Source: Asanoa ferruginea
GTDB lineage: Bacteria > Actinomycetota > Actinomycetes > Mycobacteriales > Micromonosporaceae
Assembly: GCF_003387075.1 (NCBI RefSeq)
Contig: NZ_QUMQ01000001.1
Coordinates: forward strand, 2,170,001 to 2,234,000
Direction: 5' to 3'
Length of the DNA: 64,000 bases
The notes beneath the pieces were generated by a model, which was not told the origin of the DNA, did no database searches, and was given only the letters and a program-made list of their open reading frames with translations. This document shows, one piece after another, positions 7,240 through 18,690 of this stretch (positions within the stretch are counted from its first letter, which is position 1; each line of letters opens with the position of its first letter). Made by a program: the position numbers and the translations under genes.

Positions 7240-7530
7240 CTTCGCTTCACGGACCCGGCGGAGGCCGCCTTGGCGGCCCGAGGCCGACCTGGCTCGCTCC
7301 GCGGACCCACGACGAACCGGCTGACGCCGCCTTTGCCGGCGCGAGGGCCGACCTGGACCGCTTCACGGACCCACGACGAACCGGCCGACGCCGCCTTTGC
7401 CGGCGCGAGGGCCGACCTGGACCGCTTCACGAACCCACGACGAACCGGCCGACGCCACCTTCGCGGCCCGAGGGCCGACCTGGACCGCTTCACGAACCCA
7501 CGACAAACCGGCCGAGGCCGCCTTGGCGGT
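7240..7530. repeat. Tandem repeat array, period 63-64 bp, four to five copies
   Basis: The segment GCCGACCTGG recurs at 7283, 7347, 7411 and 7474, with the surrounding 60 or so bases repeated at high identity and a partial copy before 7283. Each unit contains a conserved half (ACCGCTTCAC, ACCCACGACGAACCGGCC) and a variable, partly palindromic half such as GCCGCCTTGGCGGC. It lies in the 596-bp gap 7065-7660 between the ESX block and the ligase; I see no credible gene in that gap. Confidence 0.85.
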
Positions 7531-8915: not shown

Positions 8916-9905
8916 ATGAACAAAACCGCCGCCCGCGCCTTCGCATCCGTCTCCATCCTCGGACTGCTCACCGCGGTCGTGGCGACGGTCATCGGACACA
9001 TCGGACTCGGACCGGGGTACGACCCACTCAAGCTGACCATCAGCGACTACGCGCTGTCGAACCGGGGCGTGACGATCGAGATCGCCATGGTCGCTCTGGC
9101 ACTCGGGGCGCCGGCCCTGCTCGCCGGGCTCCGCGCGGTCGGGGTGGCCATTCGTGGGCTGCCGGCCGTACTCCTGTCGATCTGGTCCGTTGGCCTGCTC
9201 GTTGCCGCGATCATCCCGACCGACCCGCCGGAGGTGACCACGATGTCGACCGCGGCGCTGGTTCACCGCTACACATCGGTGGCCGCGTTCGTCGCCCTGC
9301 CGATCGCCGCCGCGGTGATCGCCAGCCGGTTCCCTGGGATGGGCCGCCGGATGGTTTCCGCCGTTCGCCGGCTCTGCGTCGGGTGCGCGTTGGGCGTGGC
9401 CGTGCTCTGGTACGTCGCGTTCCCCGGCGGCCGGGTGATGATGGGCCTGGTCGAGCGCAGCCTGGTCAGCGTCGAGATCGCCATCCTGATGGTGCTCTCG
9501 TTCGGCATCCTCCGCGCCGCCCGCGCCGCCCGCGCCGCCCAGCCAGCCACCCGCGAGCCGATCACCCCCATGCCCGAGACCGCCACCGCTACCGCCGGCC
9601 GGACTGCCGCTACGACCACGACCGTCATCGCAGGCCGGGCCGCCACCACCACCACGACCTCAACCGCGATGCGGTCGGGCACCACCACGAGCGGCGACCG
9701 CGGCCGGACTGCCGCTAGGACCACGACCGCCGCCGGCCGGACCGGCGCCACCAGCACGACCGCCGCCTCCTCCGGGCGGACCGGCGCCACCGACTGGGCC
9801 ACCGCGGACCGCGCCGGCGCCGCCGCGGACGGTCAGCGGCGTTCCGACCGGGACCTGGTCGGGGCGGTTAGCGGTGCCGCACAGCGGGGTAGTCGGGACG
9901 CATGA
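8916..9905 (+). CDS. DUF998-like integral membrane protein with low-complexity C-terminal tail
   Basis: 329 aa. Residues 1-205 hold six hydrophobic segments and the pattern of DUF998 proteins (an early GPGYDPLKLTISDYALSNRG loop between helices 1 and 2). From about residue 206 the protein turns into a Thr/Ala/Arg-rich tail with no recognisable fold, encoded by degenerate repeats such as GGCCGGACTGCCGCTA at 9598 and 9703. The function of DUF998 proteins is not established. The stop overlaps the next gene by ATGA. The tail may be a genuine disordered extension or a recent read-through after a lost stop. Confidence 0.75.
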   Translation: MNKTAARAFASVSILGLLTAVVATVIGHIGLGPGYDPLKLTISDYALSNRGVTIEIAMVALALGAPALLAGLRAVGVAIRGLPAVLLSIWSVGLLVAAIIPTDPPEVTTMSTAALVHRYTSVAAFVALPIAAAVIASRFPGMGRRMVSAVRRLCVGCALGVAVLWYVAFPGGRVMMGLVERSLVSVEIAILMVLSFGILRAARAARAAQPATREPITPMPETATATAGRTAATTTTVIAGRAATTTTTSTAMRSGTTTSGDRGRTAARTTTAAGRTGATSTTAASSGRTGATDWATADRAGAAADGQRRSDRDLVGAVSGAAQRGSRDA

Positions 9906-10143: not shown

Positions 10144-10998
10144 TCAGGGCCGCAACGGCGCCTGAGACGCCGCCGCCCGCATCTCGTCGGGCGTGCCCGG
10201 CGGCAGCCACTCCATCCACCAGGTGGCCCCGGCCTCGGCGACCGCCGCCACGTGCAGCCGCTCCGCCGACCAGTCCGCGCGCCGCCGACGGCCGCCGACG
10301 ATCAGGTCGAAGCCCTCGATCGAACCCCGATCGGCGCGCACCCGCGAGAGGATCTCGGCCACATCGCCCGCGGAAAGCTCAGAAGCGGCGTCGGCGTAGC
10401 GGTTGGTGGCCGACCGCCGATACGGCAGGAACCCGTCATGCCGGGCGGCCCGGGTAACCGCCGCCCGCCCCGGCCACCCGCCACCGATCCAGAGCGGGAC
10501 CGACACCGGCACCGGCTGGAACAGCACGTCGTCGACCCGGAAATGCTCGCCCGCGAAGCTGAACCGCTTACCGCCGAACAGCCCGACCAGGATCTCCAGC
10601 GACTCGTCGAGCAGGCTCGCCCGGACCCGAGGATCGGACACCCCACCGAAGCGGCGGTACGCGTCGTCGTTGGGATCGCCCACCCCGAGCCCGAGCACGA
10701 CCCGCCCGCCGCTGAGTTGGTCGAGCGTGCTGACCCGGCGGGCCAGTTCCCACGGCAGGTGCCGGGCGCCGCCGGTGACGGTCGTGCCCAGGCGGACCGT
10801 GTCGGTCGCGCCGGCCATCGCGGCGAGCGCTACCCAGACGTCGGCCGTCGGGCAGTCCGGTTCGGCGTTGTAGACCAGGTAGTCCTCGAGGAACACGCCG
10901 TCCCAGCCGGCGTCTTCGGCGCGACGAGCCAACTCGGCCAACAGGCGGGGGTCGGCGCAGGCGGCGCCGCAGGGCAGTTCAAGTCCGAATGACGTCAC
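10144..10998 (-). CDS. LLM-class flavin (F420/FMN)-dependent oxidoreductase
   Basis: 284 aa with the TIM-barrel pattern of bacterial luciferase-like monooxygenases: ELARRAEDAGWDGVFLEDY near the N-terminus, VRLGTTVTGGARHLPWELAR, then LDQLSGGRVVLGLGVG and VPLWIGGGWPGRAAVTRAAR, which form the cofactor site of F420-dependent members. Substrate cannot be inferred. The GTG start overlaps the stop of the B12-binding protein gene (GTGA), so it is the third gene of a three-gene coupled operon with a sensor and a phosphatase, an unusual setting for an LLM enzyme. Confidence 0.85.
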   Translation of the reverse strand: MTSFGLELPCGAACADPRLLAELARRAEDAGWDGVFLEDYLVYNAEPDCPTADVWVALAAMAGATDTVRLGTTVTGGARHLPWELARRVSTLDQLSGGRVVLGLGVGDPNDDAYRRFGGVSDPRVRASLLDESLEILVGLFGGKRFSFAGEHFRVDDVLFQPVPVSVPLWIGGGWPGRAAVTRAARHDGFLPYRRSATNRYADAASELSAGDVAEILSRVRADRGSIEGFDLIVGGRRRRADWSAERLHVAAVAEAGATWWMEWLPPGTPDEMRAAASQAPLRP

Positions 10999-11996
10999 GC
11001 CGTCGGGCTATACCCAGAATTCGCGCGCAGGATGTTGTGGGCCCGGGGAAAGTCGCGCAGCCGCTCGGCCATCACGTCGAAGGTCAGGCCGACGGTGTGC
11101 AGCGGCACGCCCCGGCTGGCCAGCACCTCGCCCAGCCAGCTCACGAACTCGGCGAACAACGACCCGTCGTCGACGTAGACCGCCGCGGCCAGCGAGTCGA
11201 CGATGTAGCCCAGGTCGGCGACCGTCGCGTCGACCTGCGCGGGCGAATAGCGACTCAAGTCGAGCCGGTCGAGCACGAGATCGATCAGCTCGACCCGGGC
11301 CGCGAGGAGGGCCGGATATTCGGTGTCGTCGACCAGCGCAGGCGGCAAAGCCGACGGGAGGGGTGCCGAGAGAAGCGCCGACGCGGCCCGGGCGTCCCCG
11401 GCGAACGGCACACCGAGCCGCCGTGCCCAGCGCCCGTCGGAGCCGAAGCCCCGGCCGCCGACCAGCACCGGCACGTCGGTCCGCCGGCAGGCCTCGATCG
11501 CGCGAAAAGCCTGCGGCAGCCGCATCGGCAACGCGCACGCGAGCAGCACCGCCCGCGGGTCGTGCCGGTGCAGGTAGGAGACCAGATGCGCCGACGGCAC
11601 GCTGGCACCGAGGAAGGTCACGTCCCAGCCGTCGAGCCGAAGCACCTCGGCCACCAGCCGCGGCGGCAACGCGTGCCACTCGCCGTCGAGACAGGCGACC
11701 ACGATCCGCGAACGGGTCGGCCGGGGCCGCACGGTCGCGCCCACCGCCGCCACGACCCGCTCGCTGATGTGGGTCGCGGCGTGCTCCTGGGCGACGCTCC
11801 ACTCGTTGCGCTGCCACCACTCGCCGACCTGCGCCTGCGCGGGCGCGACCAGGGAGAGCAGCACGGTGTCGGCCGGTACGCCGCCGTCGAGCAACGCGAG
11901 AGCCAGGTCGATCGCCCCGTTCTCGTCGGCCTCGTCGAGACAACGCAGGTAGGCCGGGTAGACGCTCCCGACCGTCTGCGCGAGCACGGCGGTCAC
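10995..11996 (-). CDS. B12-binding protein with CarH-type photosensor motif, no DNA-binding domain
   Basis: 333 aa. Residues 20-90 form a helical cap with an exact W-x9-EH motif (W61, E71, H72), the signature of adenosylcobalamin photoreceptors of the CarH family. Residues 95-200 are a Rossmann-like B12-binding domain with E106-x-H108 in the cobalt-ligand loop (in place of DxHxxG), S132 and the GG pair at 180-181. Unlike CarH or LitR there is no N-terminal MerR helix-turn-helix; instead a helical domain of about 120 residues follows the cobalamin domain. It overlaps the SpoIIE-phosphatase gene and the LLM gene by GTGA, which suggests that it passes a light or cobalamin signal to the phosphatase. 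That link is inference. Confidence 0.8.
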   Translation of the reverse strand: MTAVLAQTVGSVYPAYLRCLDEADENGAIDLALALLDGGVPADTVLLSLVAPAQAQVGEWWQRNEWSVAQEHAATHISERVVAAVGATVRPRPTRSRIVVACLDGEWHALPPRLVAEVLRLDGWDVTFLGASVPSAHLVSYLHRHDPRAVLLACALPMRLPQAFRAIEACRRTDVPVLVGGRGFGSDGRWARRLGVPFAGDARAASALLSAPLPSALPPALVDDTEYPALLAARVELIDLVLDRLDLSRYSPAQVDATVADLGYIVDSLAAAVYVDDGSLFAEFVSWLGEVLASRGVPLHTVGLTFDVMAERLRDFPRAHNILRANSGYSPTA

Positions 11997-13684
11997 GACG
12001 GCACCGCATGGAGATGCCGGGCGGTCAAACCGGAAGGAACCGCGCGCACGGCCAGGACCGCGATGTCGTCGTGGTTGCGGCCACCGAGCCAGTCACCGAT
12101 CACCTGCTCGACCCGCTCGGCGACCGCCGGCGCCGGCATCCGCTGGCAGCCGGTGAGAGCGTCGACGAGCCGGGCCGCTCCGAACTGGTCGCCCCGGACG
12201 CCGCCGCGCGCCTCGGTCACCCCATCGCTGAACAGCACGCAGGTCTCCCCCGGCGCGAGTTGGACGGTGACCGTGGCGATCCGTGGATCGGGCACCACCC
12301 CGATCAGCATGCCGCGCAGGTCGACCGTCTCCACCGAGCCGTCGGAGCGCAGCACGATCGGCGGCAGGTGCCCGCCGCTGGCCAGGGTGAGCGACAGGCC
12401 ACCGCTGTGGGTCGAGTGGGCGCGGCCGAGCACCATGGTCGCGAATCGACCTTGTCCGTGGGAACGGCTGGTCTCCAGCACGGCATCGTTGAGCAGGCTG
12501 AGCAGCCGCGCCGGGTCAGCCTCGATGCGCCGCAGCGCCTGGATCCCCTGCCGGATCTGCCCGGTGAACACAGCGGCGTCGACGCCCTTGCCGGAGACGT
12601 CGCCGAGGTAGAACAGCGCGCCGCCGTCGGGCATCTGGTGGGCGCCGTAGAAGTCGCCGCCGATCCGCAGTGAGCTTTGCGCGGGGCGGTAGGCGGCGCC
12701 CCACTGCACGCCGCCGACGGCCGGCGGCTCGGTCGGCGCCAGGCTCGCCTGAAGCGTCTCGGCCACCTCGGCCTGGTCTCGGTAGAGCACCGCGGCGTCG
12801 AGCGCGGCACCGGCGCGGGCCGCGAAGCCGCGCAGCAGCTGCATGTCGTGCTGGTCCGGGTCGGTGTCGCGGACGACCACCAGCGCACCGGTCGCCGACG
12901 CGCTGCCGGGCAGCGACACCACCCGGGCCGACACCGCGCGGCGATCGCGGTCGCCGAGCCAGCCGGCCTCGGCGAGTTGGTCGGCGAGCCAGTCGGCCTC
13001 CGACGGTTCGTTGCCGGCCAGCGCCTGCTCGACCGCGGGCGGCAACTCGTCGCCGGTCAGCACACCGCCGTCGACCATCGCCGGGTCGGCGCCGGTGGCC
13101 CGCCACCAGCGGGCCCGGCCACGGCGCGGCGACAGCACGACAACAGCGATTTCACCCAGCGTGGGTACGGCCAGCCGGACTGCCGCCCGTGCCGCCCGGT
13201 CTTCGTGCAGCGGGTTGCCCAACTGCTGGCTCGCCGCCGCGAGGAAGCGGGCCCGGCCACGCTCGGCGAGCAGGGCGTCGGAGCGCGCGATGGCGTCGGT
13301 GACGTCTTCGACGTACCAGGCAATGCTCGTCACCCCGGCGACCGTGAGGTCGACGCGGCGGGAGCGCACCCGCCGGTCGCCGATCGTCAGGTCGCCGTCG
13401 GTCAGCGCCGGCGCGCCGCAACCGGCGAGGGTGCGGCCGACCGCGAGGCCGGGCATCAGCCGCAGCGCGGGTTCGCTGAACTCGCGGATCACGCCGGCCT
13501 GGTCGGTGACCACGACGCCCTCGCGGAAATGGTCGAGCAACGGAGCCGGCTCGGAGCCCCCGACGACCGAGGGCCGAGGGATCGCGGGCGCGTCGGGCGC
13601 CGCTGCCGCCGTGACCCGGCGGCCGCCCGACCCCGCTCCGGCGACGTCGGCGGTATTCACGTTCGTCGACAACTCCCTGATCAT
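11993..13684 (-). CDS. PAS-GAF-SpoIIE (PP2C) serine phosphatase, RsbU/RsbP-like
   Basis: 563 aa. A PAS domain at about 45-130, a GAF domain at about 135-300 and a C-terminal PP2C/SpoIIE domain at about 325-550. The metal-binding residues are present: GGDFY at 342-346, GDVSGKG at 361-367, FSDGVTEA at about 486-493 and the Asp pair HDD at 538-540. Such phosphatases dephosphorylate STAS anti-anti-sigma factors in partner-switching pathways, and a STAS gene lies divergent just upstream. No RsbW-type kinase is in the cluster. The ATG at 13684 has only a weak ribosome-binding site, so the true start could lie downstream. Confidence 0.88.
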   Translation of the reverse strand: MIRELSTNVNTADVAGAGSGGRRVTAAAAPDAPAIPRPSVVGGSEPAPLLDHFREGVVVTDQAGVIREFSEPALRLMPGLAVGRTLAGCGAPALTDGDLTIGDRRVRSRRVDLTVAGVTSIAWYVEDVTDAIARSDALLAERGRARFLAAASQQLGNPLHEDRAARAAVRLAVPTLGEIAVVVLSPRRGRARWWRATGADPAMVDGGVLTGDELPPAVEQALAGNEPSEADWLADQLAEAGWLGDRDRRAVSARVVSLPGSASATGALVVVRDTDPDQHDMQLLRGFAARAGAALDAAVLYRDQAEVAETLQASLAPTEPPAVGGVQWGAAYRPAQSSLRIGGDFYGAHQMPDGGALFYLGDVSGKGVDAAVFTGQIRQGIQALRRIEADPARLLSLLNDAVLETSRSHGQGRFATMVLGRAHSTHSGGLSLTLASGGHLPPIVLRSDGSVETVDLRGMLIGVVPDPRIATVTVQLAPGETCVLFSDGVTEARGGVRGDQFGAARLVDALTGCQRMPAPAVAERVEQVIGDWLGGRNHDDIAVLAVRAVPSGLTARHLHAVPS

Positions 13685-13808
13685 CGGCCTGGGAAACCCA
13701 CCCTACGCGCTTGCTTGCCATACGGCATGGGACGCGATCGCGGCCAGCCGGATACCCAGCGCGCCTGGCCGGGCTGGCCTAATGTGTATCCGTCGAAAGG
13801 TGGCGAAG

Positions 13809-14159
13809 GTGAGTCAGCTGACACCGCTGCGGGTCGATGTCGAAGACGGCGTCGACGGCCCAGTGGTCACCGTGCGTGGCGATCTCGACTTCCCGTGTGC
13901 CGACGTGTTGCGCATCGCGCTGGCCAGCGCGCTCGACAAAACACCGGCCCGGCTGACCCTCGACGTCGAGCGGCTGACCTTCATCGACAGCACCGGCCTG
14001 GCCGCGCTGGTCCACGCCTGGCGGCGCGGCCACGAGGCGGGCATCCCGGTCACCCTGCGGGCGGTCCCGCCCTTCCTCGCCTCGATCCTGGAGATCACCG
14101 GGATCGGCGAGCTGTTCACGCGTCCAGCCGCCGGGACAAGGGAAGCTGCCACGGCCTGA
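13809..14159 (+). CDS. STAS-domain anti-sigma factor antagonist
   Basis: 116 aa, one STAS domain. The phosphorylation site lies in RLTFIDSTGLAALVH (Ser61); GDLDFPCADVLR and GIGELF are the usual flanking elements. It would bind an anti-sigma kinase when unphosphorylated and be reset by a SpoIIE-type phosphatase, most simply the divergently encoded one. Start choice: GTG 13809 is preceded by GAAAGG; ATG 13782 and GTG 13800 are in frame upstream. The 120-bp gap to the phosphatase gene must hold both promoters. Confidence 0.88.
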   Translation: MSQLTPLRVDVEDGVDGPVVTVRGDLDFPCADVLRIALASALDKTPARLTLDVERLTFIDSTGLAALVHAWRRGHEAGIPVTLRAVPPFLASILEITGIGELFTRPAAGTREAATA

Positions 14160-14240: not shown

Positions 14241-14873
14241 GTGATGACGTCCAGCGCCACCACCGGGGGTCGGGCCCGGCCCCTTCCACCCGAAGAGCGC
14301 CGCGCCGCCCTGGTCGAGGCGACGCTGCCGCTTGTTGTCCAACACGGCACCAAGGTCACGACGAAACAGATCGCCGAGGCCGCCGGTGTCGCCGAGGGCA
14401 CGATCTTCCGCGTCTTCCCTGACAAGGAGACGCTGGTCCGCGAGGCCATCGCCACCGTCCTCGACCCGCTGCCGACCGTGGCCGCGCTCAACGCGATCGA
14501 CCTGGACCTGCCGATTCGCGAGCGGATGGTGCAGGCGGCCGAGATCATGCGCAAGCGGATGGAGACCGCCTTCGCGGTGATGTCAGCGCTGCGGATGGAC
14601 GGCCCGCAACACCACAAGCCGGAGGAGCGGCCGAGCCACCAGCCGATGCTGGACGCGATGGAGCGGCTGGTCGCACCCGACGAAGACAAGTTCCGGCTGC
14701 CGGCCCCCGAGGTCGCGCGGATGCTCCGGCTGCTCACCTTTGCCGGCACCCACCGGATCATCACCGACAACCACCCACTCACCACCGAAGAGGTCGTCTC
14801 GGTCCTCCTCGACGGCGTGCTGCGCCGCCCGGAGACCGGTGACCACGTGAGCAACCCGGGGGAAAGTTGCTGA
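14241..14873 (+). CDS. TetR-family transcriptional regulator
   Basis: 210 aa. The N-terminal helix-turn-helix is clear (VTTKQIAEAAGVAEGTIFRV, then FPDKETLVREAIA); the C-terminal ligand domain has no sequence I can link to a ligand. The exporter gene begins inside its 3' end, so it is co-transcribed with the two transporter halves and likely represses the whole unit through the palindrome at 14208-14226. Start is GTG 14241 or ATG 14244. Confidence 0.92.
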   Translation: MMTSSATTGGRARPLPPEERRAALVEATLPLVVQHGTKVTTKQIAEAAGVAEGTIFRVFPDKETLVREAIATVLDPLPTVAALNAIDLDLPIRERMVQAAEIMRKRMETAFAVMSALRMDGPQHHKPEERPSHQPMLDAMERLVAPDEDKFRLPAPEVARMLRLLTFAGTHRIITDNHPLTTEEVVSVLLDGVLRRPETGDHVSNPGESC

Positions 14874-16600
14874 TCAAACTGCTGCGGGGCTATCTGCGCC
14901 CGTACAAGAAACCACTGCTCCTGGTCGTCGTGTTCCAGTTCGTCGGGACGATGGCGTCGCTCTACCTGCCCAGCCTCAACGCCGACATCATCGACAAGGG
15001 CATCGCGGCCGGTGACACCGGCTACATCCTGCGCACCGGCGGCTGGATGCTGGCCGTGACGATCGTGCAGATGGCGTGTTCGATCGTCGCCGTCTACTTC
15101 GGTGCGCGCACCGCCATGAGCTTCGGCCGCGACGTCCGCGGCGCGATCTTCCACCGGGTCGGCATGTTCTCCGCCCGCGAGGTCAACCACTTCGGCGCAC
15201 CGTCGCTGATCACCCGCAGCACCAACGACACGCAACAGGTGCAGATGCTCGTCGTGCTGAGCTGCACCCTGCTGGTCACCGCGCCGATCACCGCGGTCGG
15301 CGGCGTGATCCTCGCGCTGCGCGAAGACGTCGGGCTGTCCTGGCTGATGCTGGTCGCCGTCCCGGTGCTGGCGATCGCGATCGGCCTGATCATCCGCCGG
15401 ATGGTGCCCACCTTCCGCAAGATGCAGACCCGCATCGACGTGGTCAACCGGGTGCTGCGCGAGCAGATCACCGGCGTCCGCGTGGTCCGCGCGTTCGTCC
15501 GCGAGCCCTACGAGACCGAGCGGTTCGGCGACGCCAACCAGCAACTGACCGCGACCGCGCTGCGGGCCGGCCGGCTGATGGCGCTGATCTTCCCGACCGT
15601 CATGCTGGTGCTCAACGTGTCGAGCGTCGGCGTGCTCTGGTTCGGCGCCAGCCGGGTCGACTCGGGCCAGATCGAGATCGGCGCGCTGACGGCGTTCCTC
15701 AACTACCTCGTACTCATCCTGATGTCGGTCATGATGGCGACCTTCATGCTGATCATGGTGCCGCGCGCGGCCGTCGCCGCCGAGCGGATCACCGAGGTGC
15801 TCGACACCGACAGCACCGTTGTGCCGGCACAGAACCCGGTTACCACCGTCAGCGAGCACGCCAGCCTGGAGTTCCGCGACGTCACGTTCCAATACCCCGG
15901 CGCCGCCTCACCCGTGCTGCGCAACATCGACCTGCACGCCGAAGCAGGCAAGACAACAGCGATCATCGGGAGTACGGGAGCCGGCAAGACAACGCTGATC
16001 TCGATGGCGCCGCGGCTGTTCGACGCCACGTCGGGCACGGTGCTGGTCGACGGTGTCGACGTTAGGCAACTCGACGAAGACCTGCTCTGGAGCAAGATCG
16101 GGTTGGTGCCGCAACGGCCCTACCTGTTCACCGGCACGATCGCCAGCAACCTGCGCTACGGCAACCCGGACGCGACCGACGAGGAGCTGTGGGCCGCGCT
16201 CGAGGTGGCCCAGGCCAAAGACTTCGTCGAGGAGATGCCCGAGCGGCTCGAAGCGCCGATCGCACAGGGCGGCACCAACGTCTCCGGCGGCCAGCGGCAA
16301 CGCCTGGCCATCGCCCGGGCGCTGGTCCGCAAGCCCGAGATCTACCTGTTCGACGACTCGTTCTCCGCGCTCGACCTCGGCACCGACGCCCGGCTGCGGG
16401 CGGCCTTGCGGCCCGTGACGGCCGACGCCGCGGTGATCGTGGTGGCACAGCGGGTCTCCACGATCATCGACGCCGACGAGATCATCGTGCTCGAAGACGG
16501 CGCCATCGTGGGCCGTGGCCGGCACGCCGAACTTCTGGAAAGCAGCCCGACGTACGCCGAGATCGTCGAGTCGCAGCTCACGGTGGGAGCCGCAGCATGA
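14867..16600 (+). CDS. ABC exporter half-transporter with degenerate ATP site
   Basis: 577 aa: six-helix membrane domain (about 1-310) and nucleotide-binding domain (about 335-570). Walker A is GSTGAGKT (about 367), the Q-loop VPQRPYLF, the signature VSGGQRQR. The catalytic positions are altered: Walker B reads YLFDDSFSALD, with Asp where the catalytic Glu is expected, and the switch motif reads AQRVST with Gln instead of His. That is the pattern of the inactive-site partner in heterodimeric exporters. It starts with TTG 14867 inside the end of the TetR gene and overlaps the second half by ATGA. Substrate unknown; multidrug or lipid export is likely. Confidence 0.92.
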   Translation: MLIKLLRGYLRPYKKPLLLVVVFQFVGTMASLYLPSLNADIIDKGIAAGDTGYILRTGGWMLAVTIVQMACSIVAVYFGARTAMSFGRDVRGAIFHRVGMFSAREVNHFGAPSLITRSTNDTQQVQMLVVLSCTLLVTAPITAVGGVILALREDVGLSWLMLVAVPVLAIAIGLIIRRMVPTFRKMQTRIDVVNRVLREQITGVRVVRAFVREPYETERFGDANQQLTATALRAGRLMALIFPTVMLVLNVSSVGVLWFGASRVDSGQIEIGALTAFLNYLVLILMSVMMATFMLIMVPRAAVAAERITEVLDTDSTVVPAQNPVTTVSEHASLEFRDVTFQYPGAASPVLRNIDLHAEAGKTTAIIGSTGAGKTTLISMAPRLFDATSGTVLVDGVDVRQLDEDLLWSKIGLVPQRPYLFTGTIASNLRYGNPDATDEELWAALEVAQAKDFVEEMPERLEAPIAQGGTNVSGGQRQRLAIARALVRKPEIYLFDDSFSALDLGTDARLRAALRPVTADAAVIVVAQRVSTIIDADEIIVLEDGAIVGRGRHAELLESSPTYAEIVESQLTVGAAA

Positions 16601-18690
16601 CCGCGCCGCAGAACGGAAACAGCAACCCGGCCCCCAACCAGGCCAACCCGCCCGCCGCCGAAGACGGCGCCCGCGTGGTGCCCGCCCGGCTCCCCGCGGC
16701 CGGTGCCCGCCGGCCCGGCGGCGGTCCGCCGTGGATGAGCGCCGGCATGCCGGTCGAGAAGTCGATGACCTTCGTCCCGTCGGCGAAGCGCCTGCTCCGC
16801 CGGCTGAGCCCCTACCGCGGTCAGCTGTCGCTGGTCGTCCTGCTGGCGATCAGCAGCGTGGCGCTCGCGGTGATCGGCCCGAAGATCCTCGGGCACGCGA
16901 CCGACGTCATCTTCCGCGGCGTTCTTGGTCGCCGGCTGCCGGAGGGCGCCAGCCTCGACCAGGCCGCAGCCGCGGCCCGGGCCGGCGGCCAGGAAAACTT
17001 CGCCGAGTTGCTGCTCAAGACCAAGCCGATCCCGGGCGTGGGCATCAACTTCGAGCAGCTCGGCCAGATCCTGCTGGTCGTGCTCGCCATCTACGTGGTG
17101 TCCAGTCTGCTGGCCTGGGCCCAGGGCTGGGTGCTCAACGGGGTGGTGCAGCGCGCGGTGCTCAAGCTGCGCGCCGACGTCGAAGACAAGCTCAACCGGC
17201 TGCCGCTGCCCTACTTCGACAAGCAGCCCCGCGGTGAGCTGCTCAGCCGGGTGACCAACGACATCGACAACGTCGCGCAGAGCCTGCAACAGACGCTCAG
17301 TCAGGTGTTGACCTCGTTGCTCACCGTGGTCGGCGTTGTCACGCTGATGGTGTGGATCTCGCCCCTGCTCGCCGCCGTCGCGCTCGTCGCGGTGCCACTG
17401 TCGTTCCTGATCACCGCGCAGATCGGCAAGCGGTCGCAGAAGCAGTTCATCGCGCAGTGGAAGCACACCGGCCGGCTCAACGGGCACATCGAGGAGGCGT
17501 TCACCGGCCACGAGCTGGTCAAGGTCTTCGGCCGGCGCAAGGAGGTCGAGGCCGACTTCGAGACCAAGAACGACGAGCTCTACAAGGCGGCATTCGGCGC
17601 GCAGTTCGTCTCCGGGATCATCATGCCGGCGATGTTCTTCGTCGGAAACCTGAGCTACGTGGTGATCGCGGTGCTCGGCGGGCTCCGGGTGGCGTCCGGC
17701 ACGATGACGTTGGGTGACGTGCAGGCGTTCATCCAATACTCGCGCCAGTTCACCCAGCCGCTGACCCAGCTCGCGTCGATGGCCAACCTGCTCCAGTCCG
17801 GTGTCGCCTCGGCCGAACGCGTCTTCGACCTGCTCGACGCCGACGAGCAGTTGCCCGACCCGTCGCCCGCCGTCGAGGTGCACCAGCCGCACGGCCGGGT
17901 CGAGTTCGAGCACGTCTCGTTCCGCTACACGCCCGACACCCCGCTGATCGACGACCTGTCGCTGGTCGCCGAGCCCGGGCACACGGTGGCGATTGTCGGT
18001 CCGACGGGGGCCGGCAAGACCACGCTGGTCAACCTGGTCATGCGCTTCTACGAGCTCGACGGCGGTCGGATCACGCTCGACGGGGTCGACATCACGACGA
18101 TGAAGCGCGAGACCCTGCGCGGCGAGATCGGCATGGTGCTCCAGGACACCTGGCTGTTCGGGGGCACGATCCGGGACAACATCGCCTACGGGAACCCGAG
18201 CGCCACCGAGGAGCAGATCCACGCGGCGGCCGAGGCGACCTTCGTCGACCGGTTCGTGCGCAGCCTGCCCGACGGCTACGACACGGTGATCGACGAGGAG
18301 GGCAGCAACGTCAGCGCCGGTGAGCGGCAGCTCATCACGATCGCGCGGGCGTTCCTGGCCAACCCGTCACTGCTGATCCTCGACGAGGCGACCAGCTCCG
18401 TCGACACCCGCACCGAGGCCTTGCTGCAACGGGCAATGGCGGCGCTGCGGTCCGACCGGACCAGCTTCGTGATCGCGCACCGGCTCTCCACGATCCGCGA
18501 CGCCCACCTCATCCTGGTGATGGAGAAGGGTCGGATCGTCGAGCAGGGCACCCACGAGCAGTTGCTGATGGCCAACGGCGCCTACCGGCGACTGCACGAC
18601 GCACAGTTCACCCAGGCCGCCGTCGATCTCGACGGGTCGGCTGCCCCGGCCGGGGGAATCGCGCTCGCGGGGGCACCGCCGCGCGGCTAG
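16597..18690 (+). CDS. ABC exporter half-transporter with catalytic ATP site
   Basis: 697 aa. A Pro/Ala-rich N-terminal extension of about 65 residues precedes the membrane domain (about 70-420) and the nucleotide-binding domain (about 440-680). Walker A GPTGAGKT (about 467), signature VSAGERQ (about 571), Walker B LILDEATSSVD with intact catalytic Glu, and switch IAHRLST with intact His. It supplies the active site that the preceding gene product lacks, so the two form a heterodimer. An insertion of about 50 residues between the first two membrane helices (after HATDVIFRGVLG) is typical of this actinobacterial subfamily. ATGA overlap with the first half. Confidence 0.93.
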   Translation: MTAPQNGNSNPAPNQANPPAAEDGARVVPARLPAAGARRPGGGPPWMSAGMPVEKSMTFVPSAKRLLRRLSPYRGQLSLVVLLAISSVALAVIGPKILGHATDVIFRGVLGRRLPEGASLDQAAAAARAGGQENFAELLLKTKPIPGVGINFEQLGQILLVVLAIYVVSSLLAWAQGWVLNGVVQRAVLKLRADVEDKLNRLPLPYFDKQPRGELLSRVTNDIDNVAQSLQQTLSQVLTSLLTVVGVVTLMVWISPLLAAVALVAVPLSFLITAQIGKRSQKQFIAQWKHTGRLNGHIEEAFTGHELVKVFGRRKEVEADFETKNDELYKAAFGAQFVSGIIMPAMFFVGNLSYVVIAVLGGLRVASGTMTLGDVQAFIQYSRQFTQPLTQLASMANLLQSGVASAERVFDLLDADEQLPDPSPAVEVHQPHGRVEFEHVSFRYTPDTPLIDDLSLVAEPGHTVAIVGPTGAGKTTLVNLVMRFYELDGGRITLDGVDITTMKRETLRGEIGMVLQDTWLFGGTIRDNIAYGNPSATEEQIHAAAEATFVDRFVRSLPDGYDTVIDEEGSNVSAGERQLITIARAFLANPSLLILDEATSSVDTRTEALLQRAMAALRSDRTSFVIAHRLSTIRDAHLILVMEKGRIVEQGTHEQLLMANGAYRRLHDAQFTQAAVDLDGSAAPAGGIALAGAPPRG

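Follow-up and report, generated by a model that had tools for sequence, protein, structure and literature searches.

Photocobilins are photosensors with two chromophores, adenosylcobalamin (AdoCbl) and biliverdin, and two of them are the closest described relatives of a protein encoded in the DNA analyzed here, a 64,000-nucleotide stretch of the Asanoa ferruginea genome (contig NZ_QUMQ01000001.1, positions 2,170,001 to 2,234,000; hereafter the window). SasPcob of Saccharothrix syringae (PDB 8J2W and 8J2X; dark and light structures) is a standalone protein, whereas in AbDPcob, from an Acidimicrobiaceae bacterium, a diguanylate cyclase, the B12 domain, and the biliverdin domain follow one another in a single polypeptide (its photocobilin part is PDB 8J2Y). 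The paper that defined the family reports that light activates the AbDPcob cyclase more than 10-fold, that standalone SasPcob alters the cyclase activity of AbDPcob in trans, and that SasPcob without biliverdin acted with the opposite sign (PMC10979010). The same source calls the function of standalone photocobilins "less clear," and its network analysis lists STAS, SpoIIE, and PP2C phosphatases as potential SasPcob interactors; the family, its photochemistry, and a possible link of SasPcob to SpoIIE and STAS are thus already on record there (PMC10979010). Two further systems bear comparison. CarH/LitR photoreceptors have a B12 core with W-x9-EH and E-x-H motifs, and the RsbP-RsbQ and RsbU-RsbT pairs of Bacillus subtilis are described as phosphatases of sensor-helical linker-PP2C build, each controlled by a separate protein; it has also been proposed that phosphatases and GGDEF cyclases exchange their control modules (PMC12143880).

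The A. ferruginea genome (9.07 Mb) carries a minus-strand run of genes for a SpoIIE phosphatase, a B12-binding protein, and an LLM oxidoreductase, with a STAS gene divergent from it. From sequence, structural models, and analogy with the systems above, we consider it probable (roughly three chances in four) that the B12-binding protein is a photocobilin controlling the co-encoded phosphatase, which would act on the STAS protein and hence on sigma-factor partner switching. The features concerned are as follows.

11993..13684, minus strand: SpoIIE phosphatase gene (Pfam PF07228 SpoIIE, 147.8 bits), PAS-GAF-PP2C build, listed start ATG 13684
10995..11996, minus strand: photocobilin gene (the B12 protein), predicted standalone AdoCbl and biliverdin photosensor of 333 amino acids, GTG start, identified with phmmer and Foldseek
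11745..11951, minus strand: four-helix B12-binding_2 domain of the photocobilin (Pfam PF02607, 45.6 bits), amino acids 16 to 84, with W61-x9-E71-H72
11391..11708, minus strand: Rossmann B12-binding domain of the photocobilin (Pfam PF02310, 57.3 bits), amino acids 97 to 202, with the E106-x-H108 cobalt-ligand motif
11022..11318, minus strand: predicted C-terminal globin-like biliverdin-binding domain of the photocobilin, about amino acids 227 to 325, from the SasPcob alignment and six helices in the model
10144..10998, minus strand: LLM oxidoreductase gene (bacterial-luciferase-like, F420 Rv2161c-like; Pfam Bac_luciferase, 123.9 bits)
13809..14159, plus strand: STAS gene of the anti-sigma-factor-antagonist type, 116 amino acids (Pfam STAS_2, 61.5 bits; STAS, 53.1 bits)
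11993..11996, minus strand: GTGA stop-start overlap of the phosphatase and photocobilin genes, read from the sequence
10995..10998, minus strand: GTGA stop-start overlap of the photocobilin and LLM genes, read from the sequence
13698..13729, minus strand: putative conserved promoter of the phosphatase-photocobilin operon, a dyad plus a -10-like box found in 6/6 genus loci

The best matches of the B12 protein in a phmmer search of solved structures were the two SasPcob entries (8j2w, E = 1.3e-97; 8j2x, E = 1.5e-97), followed by the photocobilin part of AbDPcob, AbPcob (8j2y, E = 5.5e-43), a MerR-family B12 protein (8jbs, E = 1.2e-11), and CarH entries (E = 2.9e-9). Its AlphaFold model, built from an alignment of seven rows (A2), had a mean predicted local distance difference test score (pLDDT) of 86.4 and was aligned to 8j2w by Foldseek across 325 columns with a query-normalized TM-score (TMq) of 0.89 and 55% identity. 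PF02607 and PF02310 both scored above their cutoffs, indicating that the four-helix plus Rossmann B12 core is present. The AdoCbl-ligand residues (Trp61, Glu71-His72, and Glu106-x-His108) are all there, as are the biliverdin-pocket residues Asp261 and Trp287, which were placed by hand on the phmmer alignment and equal Asp270 and Trp296 of SasPcob. Given the SasPcob match, the ligand residues, and the whole-length fold match, we conclude that the B12 protein is, by sequence and model, a full-length standalone photocobilin, predicted to bind both AdoCbl and biliverdin.

The protein thus shares with SasPcob its standalone form, full-length domain order, and AdoCbl and biliverdin residues; it differs in sequence (the 55% identity given above) and is known from sequence and model only. 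AbDPcob likewise has its effector in front and its photocobilin behind, with light activating the effector; there, however, the effector is a fused diguanylate cyclase instead of a separate phosphatase, and His replaces the biliverdin Asp. Unlike CarH/LitR, with which it has both B12 motifs in common, the window protein has no MerR DNA-binding domain detectable with Pfam and has an extra globin domain; the NCBIfam CarH model gave it 58.1 bits against a cutoff of 400. A first-pass annotation of the window had described a B12 photosensor of the CarH type that lacks a DNA-binding domain and bears an exact W61-x9-E71-H72 motif. The motif is indeed exact, and Pfam finds B12 domains only. The sensor itself is not new: it is no orphan CarH-like protein but a member of the described photocobilin family, with biliverdin binding expected. 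The annotation was right about the sensor type and overlooked the C-terminal bilin-binding globin.

We considered whether the sensor might instead read cobalamin status or redox, with biliverdin and the Trp/Glu/His cap serving ligand sensing and not light. Across 90 aligned photocobilin rows, with gaps counted as misses, Trp61 is kept in 86, Glu71 in 88, His72 in 86, His108 in 86, and the biliverdin Trp in 88, while the biliverdin Asp is kept in 68. (These rows exclude loci L134 and L135, include the second member of the tandem pair at each of L099 and L101, and so differ from the 90 loci treated below.) The absence of the Asp from 21 of the 89 rows that have a residue at that position, together with evidence that comes from sequence alone, leaves room for such a ligand sensor, yet every residue checked in the crystallized, light-tested SasPcob is present in the window protein and the A. 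ferruginea genome encodes a heme oxygenase, so we regard this alternative as improbable. The genome also encodes a cobalamin adenosyltransferase. Among relatives, a PF01126 heme oxygenase was found in 17/21 genomes with a photocobilin and 14/40 without (Fisher one-sided p = 0.0007); within the family the figures are 15/17 and 11/20 (p = 0.03). We set this co-occurrence aside as support for biliverdin use, as it is weakened by shared ancestry and by a marginal match in genome G048 (E = 7.9e-5), and PF01126 was the only family searched.

Two departures from the usual sensor were seen. At L137 (genome G129), a photocobilin relative next to a SpoIIE gene is without Trp61, the cobalt His, and both biliverdin residues, and to judge from these positions it is perhaps no longer a photosensor. 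At L099 (G218) and L101 (G075), a tandem pair of photocobilin genes stands behind a single SpoIIE gene, followed by a STAS gene.

The first-pass annotation had suggested a search for the same gene order in other genomes, and this order proved to be conserved. We compiled 90 photocobilin loci: 24 from relatives (strong matches only, >130 bits), 2 from named records (L059 and L060, which may duplicate another sampled genus), and 64 from a sample of the class Actinomycetes (73 places, minus 6 already in the set and 3 inside another stretch). Loci L055 to L058 were left out as repeats of G003, G005, G001, and G002, and L061 and L062 as partial matches. No photocobilin gene was called at L134, where the match lies at a contig end, or at L135, and both were counted as misses; L148, L153, and L155 hold fragments. 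Genes were called with a simple GC-frame script, which makes overlap counts approximate, and were labeled with custom-built profiles. A SpoIIE gene lies just upstream of the photocobilin on the same strand in 76/90 loci, as the next gene in 74 and one gene further in 2, and these linked loci span 32 of 40 genus labels. The two genes overlap by exactly 4 nucleotides (nt) in 47 of the 76. Since SpoIIE matches are few per genome (16 in the window genome and 6 to 42 in 12 others), a SpoIIE neighbor would be expected by chance at fewer than 1 in 100 loci, assuming roughly one gene per kb, and the pairing is far above chance. We noticed no in-frame fusion of phosphatase and photocobilin in the gene lists, which were not searched specifically for one. 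With the best five candidates per genome scored, photocobilins were found at E = 1e-20 or better in 65/394 genomes of the class, and a sample of the phylum gave matches at 1e-25 in 22/396 genomes, 11 of them outside the class.

The phosphatases that accompany photocobilins appear, from trees of the SpoIIE domain only (LG+G4), to form one dedicated clade. In a first tree, all 76 partners fell on one side of a single label change against 42 other SpoIIE domains, with support of 98 in the Shimodaira-Hasegawa-like approximate likelihood ratio test (SH-aLRT). A more careful tree with three more rows and 43 others gave the partner clade support of 100/98, with two orphan phosphatases inside it. The 43 nonpartners are a sample, comprising 12 of the other 15 SpoIIE proteins of the A. 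ferruginea genome, 20 from 12 other genomes, 10 neighbors in the stretches examined, and 1 from L230. Scores tell a similar story: in 61 relatives, with up to 22 candidates per genome scored, 23 proteins matched the window phosphatase at >160 bits, and 21 of these adjoin a photocobilin. The two exceptions are the same orphans, in G008 and G027, and the next match scored 150.2 bits.

As to its build, the window phosphatase has the SpoIIE domain that the first-pass annotation assigned to it, and the PAS and GAF domains named there hold up by way of the partner alignment and the model, both Pfam models falling short of E = 0.1 on the protein itself. In the alignment used for the structure and for these counts (A1, 51 of the 76 partners), the GAF model matches 27/51 and PAS_8 matches 10/51 at E = 0.01. 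In the AlphaFold model (mean pLDDT, 88.3), strands and helices that would fit a PAS-like and a GAF-like domain are connected through long helices, one of them at residues 278 to 314, to the PP2C domain; the two domain names are our own reading, as the Foldseek matches cover the phosphatase part. Alignment columns 344, 362, 487, 539, and 540 hold Asp in 76/76 partners, the window phosphatase included; we take these five catalytic positions to be the metal ligands of PP2C.

The slot upstream of the photocobilin is not always filled by a phosphatase. At L141, L143, and L146, a GGDEF cyclase occupies it with a 4-nt overlap. Among 14 loci from other classes of the phylum, in which genes within 3.5 kb were labeled, no gene was labeled SpoIIE; a GGDEF match is the next upstream gene in 6 (two of them weak, at 27.5 and 18.0 bits) and lies one gene further in a seventh. 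No photocobilin gene was called at one of the 14 (L264), and the upstream genes of six (L253, L254, L256, L259, L261, and L265) carry no identification. Because the phosphatase holds the same position as a cyclase that is swapped in or, as in AbDPcob, fused, it should be the output of the sensor, and we think it very probable, from this position together with the conserved pairing and the phosphatase clade, that the co-encoded phosphatase is the photocobilin output. GGDEF genes in other arrangements were also seen, divergent from the photocobilin at L110 and as a GGDEF-EAL gene downstream of it at L142.

The STAS protein is likely, judging by its sequence and its place, to be the substrate of the phosphatase. 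It has a Pfam STAS domain over the cutoff, with a Ser within a DSTG motif, and this phosphorylatable Ser is conserved in 62/62 STAS proteins neighboring photocobilin loci; TIGR00377 gave 52.8 bits, with a cutoff of 53.45. Of the 76 linked loci, 49 have a STAS gene no more than four genes away; in 30 it follows directly downstream on the same strand, and in 15 it is divergent and two genes upstream, the arrangement of the window. The frequent downstream position might suggest the STAS protein, or a complex of STAS and kinase, as the target of the photocobilin, with the phosphatase merely resetting the switch, and at one locus (L139:1083-4247), where no gene of the stretch was labeled SpoIIE, the photocobilin is followed by genes for an HATPase_c_2 protein resembling anti-sigma kinases and for a KaiC-like ATPase. 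However, the phosphatase is the steadier neighbor, with its recurrent 4-nt overlap, and it is the phosphatase slot, not the STAS slot, into which GGDEF enzymes are swapped. We therefore hold this alternative to be unlikely and favor control of the phosphatase by the photocobilin.

A mechanism can be outlined along these lines. From what is known of the family, AdoCbl would be bound via His108, its adenosyl group capped by Trp61, Glu71, and His72, and biliverdin would sit near Asp261 and Trp287 in the C-terminal globin. When either chromophore absorbs light, the adenosyl group would be lost and the photocobilin would change shape; it might then bind or release the PAS-GAF-linker region of the phosphatase, which would be made from the same transcript. 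A change in the PP2C dimer would alter how far the STAS protein from the divergent gene is dephosphorylated, and dephosphorylated STAS would draw an anti-sigma kinase, encoded elsewhere, off its sigma factor. The photocobilin would thus be to the phosphatase, which has the matching sensor-linker-PP2C build, what RsbQ is to RsbP or RsbT to RsbU, with the difference that the partner here is a photosensor and its control of the phosphatase is a prediction. As to sign, activation by light is favored by the example of AbDPcob, and the reverse is possible, as for SasPcob without biliverdin. In this soil actinobacterium, a gene switch of the stress type is probably under the control of light. More broadly, photocobilins may be light-driven counterparts of RsbQ and RsbT, regulating one PAS-GAF-PP2C clade in trans in the class Actinomycetes and giving nonphototrophic actinobacteria a green-to-red light input to sigma-factor partner switching, while diguanylate cyclases, mostly in the phylum's other classes, would have acquired the same sensor as a 4-nt-overlapping neighbor or as a fusion; to this wider scheme we would give even odds.

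Several observations weigh against the proposed light control of partner switching. The A. ferruginea genome has 58 HATPase_c_2 matches and 31 SigBFG matches (6 above the cutoff), all of which fall outside the window (0/58 and 0/31 inside it), leaving it without a match to an anti-sigma kinase or a sigma factor. The first-pass annotation had drawn the path from phosphatase to STAS to sigma factor; conserved gene order supports its phosphatase/STAS part, and we infer the sigma-factor step for a factor encoded outside the window. STAS genes are missing within four genes at 27 of the 76 linked loci, in whose genomes the substrate may be encoded elsewhere. Fourteen of the 90 loci were counted as being without an upstream SpoIIE: 2 have no called photocobilin, 1 holds a fragment, 1 has SpoIIE on the opposite strand, and the rest have other neighbors. 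Within the dedicated clade, the orphans G008:5735025 and G027:4628937 have no photocobilin in the 12-kb stretch examined (the genes are L230:5017-6543 and L231:5399-6736, respectively) and possibly arose by sensor loss, and the linked phosphatases of G048 and G043 score 140 to 144 bits, among unlinked ones. PF01126 was not found in 4 of the 21 photocobilin genomes among relatives, including G036, whose photocobilin is 76% identical and keeps its pocket residues. The sign reversal of SasPcob without biliverdin means that the sign cannot be predicted here. Finally, a literature search of open-licence PMC papers gave no binding or light experiment on a photocobilin-SpoIIE pair.

The conserved pair points to a single partner of the standalone photocobilin, the co-encoded phosphatase. 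If this is correct, visible light would be tied to general-stress type sigma control in soil actinobacteria, and the phosphatase would be a natural Ser/Thr phosphatase switched by light. None of the open-licence papers searched describes a phosphatase clade dedicated to photocobilins, the 4-nt overlap that recurs between the two genes, or the replacement of the phosphatase by GGDEF enzymes in the same slot.

The LLM oxidoreductase, which the first-pass annotation had put forward as a new output or cofactor-linked part of the module, is probably a genus-limited neighbor outside it. TIGR03619 gave its product 136.4 bits, against a cutoff of 166.9. Its gene joins the run through the second GTGA overlap, just as that annotation had read both overlaps and the divergent STAS gene, and the orthologues (E = 1e-60 or better) sit at the photocobilin locus in 4/4 cases, only about 26 nt from the photocobilin in G004, which would favor a functional link. 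These four, however, are the only genomes of 37 to have one, all in this genus (4 of its 6 genomes); no match at that threshold was found in G002, G005, or 31 genomes outside the genus. In two of the four, G001 and G003, an opposite-strand gene of 166 to 168 amino acids, weakly glyoxalase-like in G001, splits the LLM gene from the photocobilin, so a shared operon is unlikely there. Distant LLM-family genes occur within four genes of the photocobilin, not adjacent, at L099, L103, and L149 of the 90 loci, and an opposite-strand gene stands between LLM gene and phosphatase at L099 and L103. With genus-only orthologues and a split order, we reject the enzyme as a conserved part of the module, and its service as a further output or cofactor-linked component is very improbable.

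Comparison of the six genus loci also bears on gene boundaries. The phosphatase probably starts at GTG 13660 instead of ATG 13684, because GTGA(A/G)(T/C)ACCGC is kept in 6/6 loci, and for the STAS gene GTG 13809 is the probable start, in a region that is kept in all six as well. On the minus strand, between the phosphatase and STAS genes, a dyad, CATGCCG(C/T)ATG, at 13719 to 13729 lies 13 nt ahead of a TAGGGTGG -10-like box at 13698 to 13705, and both elements recur in all six loci; TAGGGTGG was also found upstream of the partner phosphatase in 5/70 other loci. We infer from this conservation that dyad and box may form the promoter of the phosphatase-photocobilin operon. An Rfam scan of the window gave no match at the gathering threshold, either to a cobalamin riboswitch or to another RNA element, and a tRNA search of the window found none.

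Beyond the STAS gene, at 14241 to 18690, the window holds a TetR regulator and two ABC transporter genes that are present at five of the six genus loci; at the sixth (G005) the contig starts just beyond STAS, and this region is not covered. Loci of other genera among the relatives gave no TetR match, and distant ABC transporters were found in L041 and L044 only. On the other side of the run, 33-nt imperfect tandem repeats lie at 9592 to 9767, within the 3' part of a DUF998 membrane-protein gene, and a 64-nt unit is repeated in tandem (4.3 copies) at 7255 to 7524, upstream of a DNA-ligase-domain gene.

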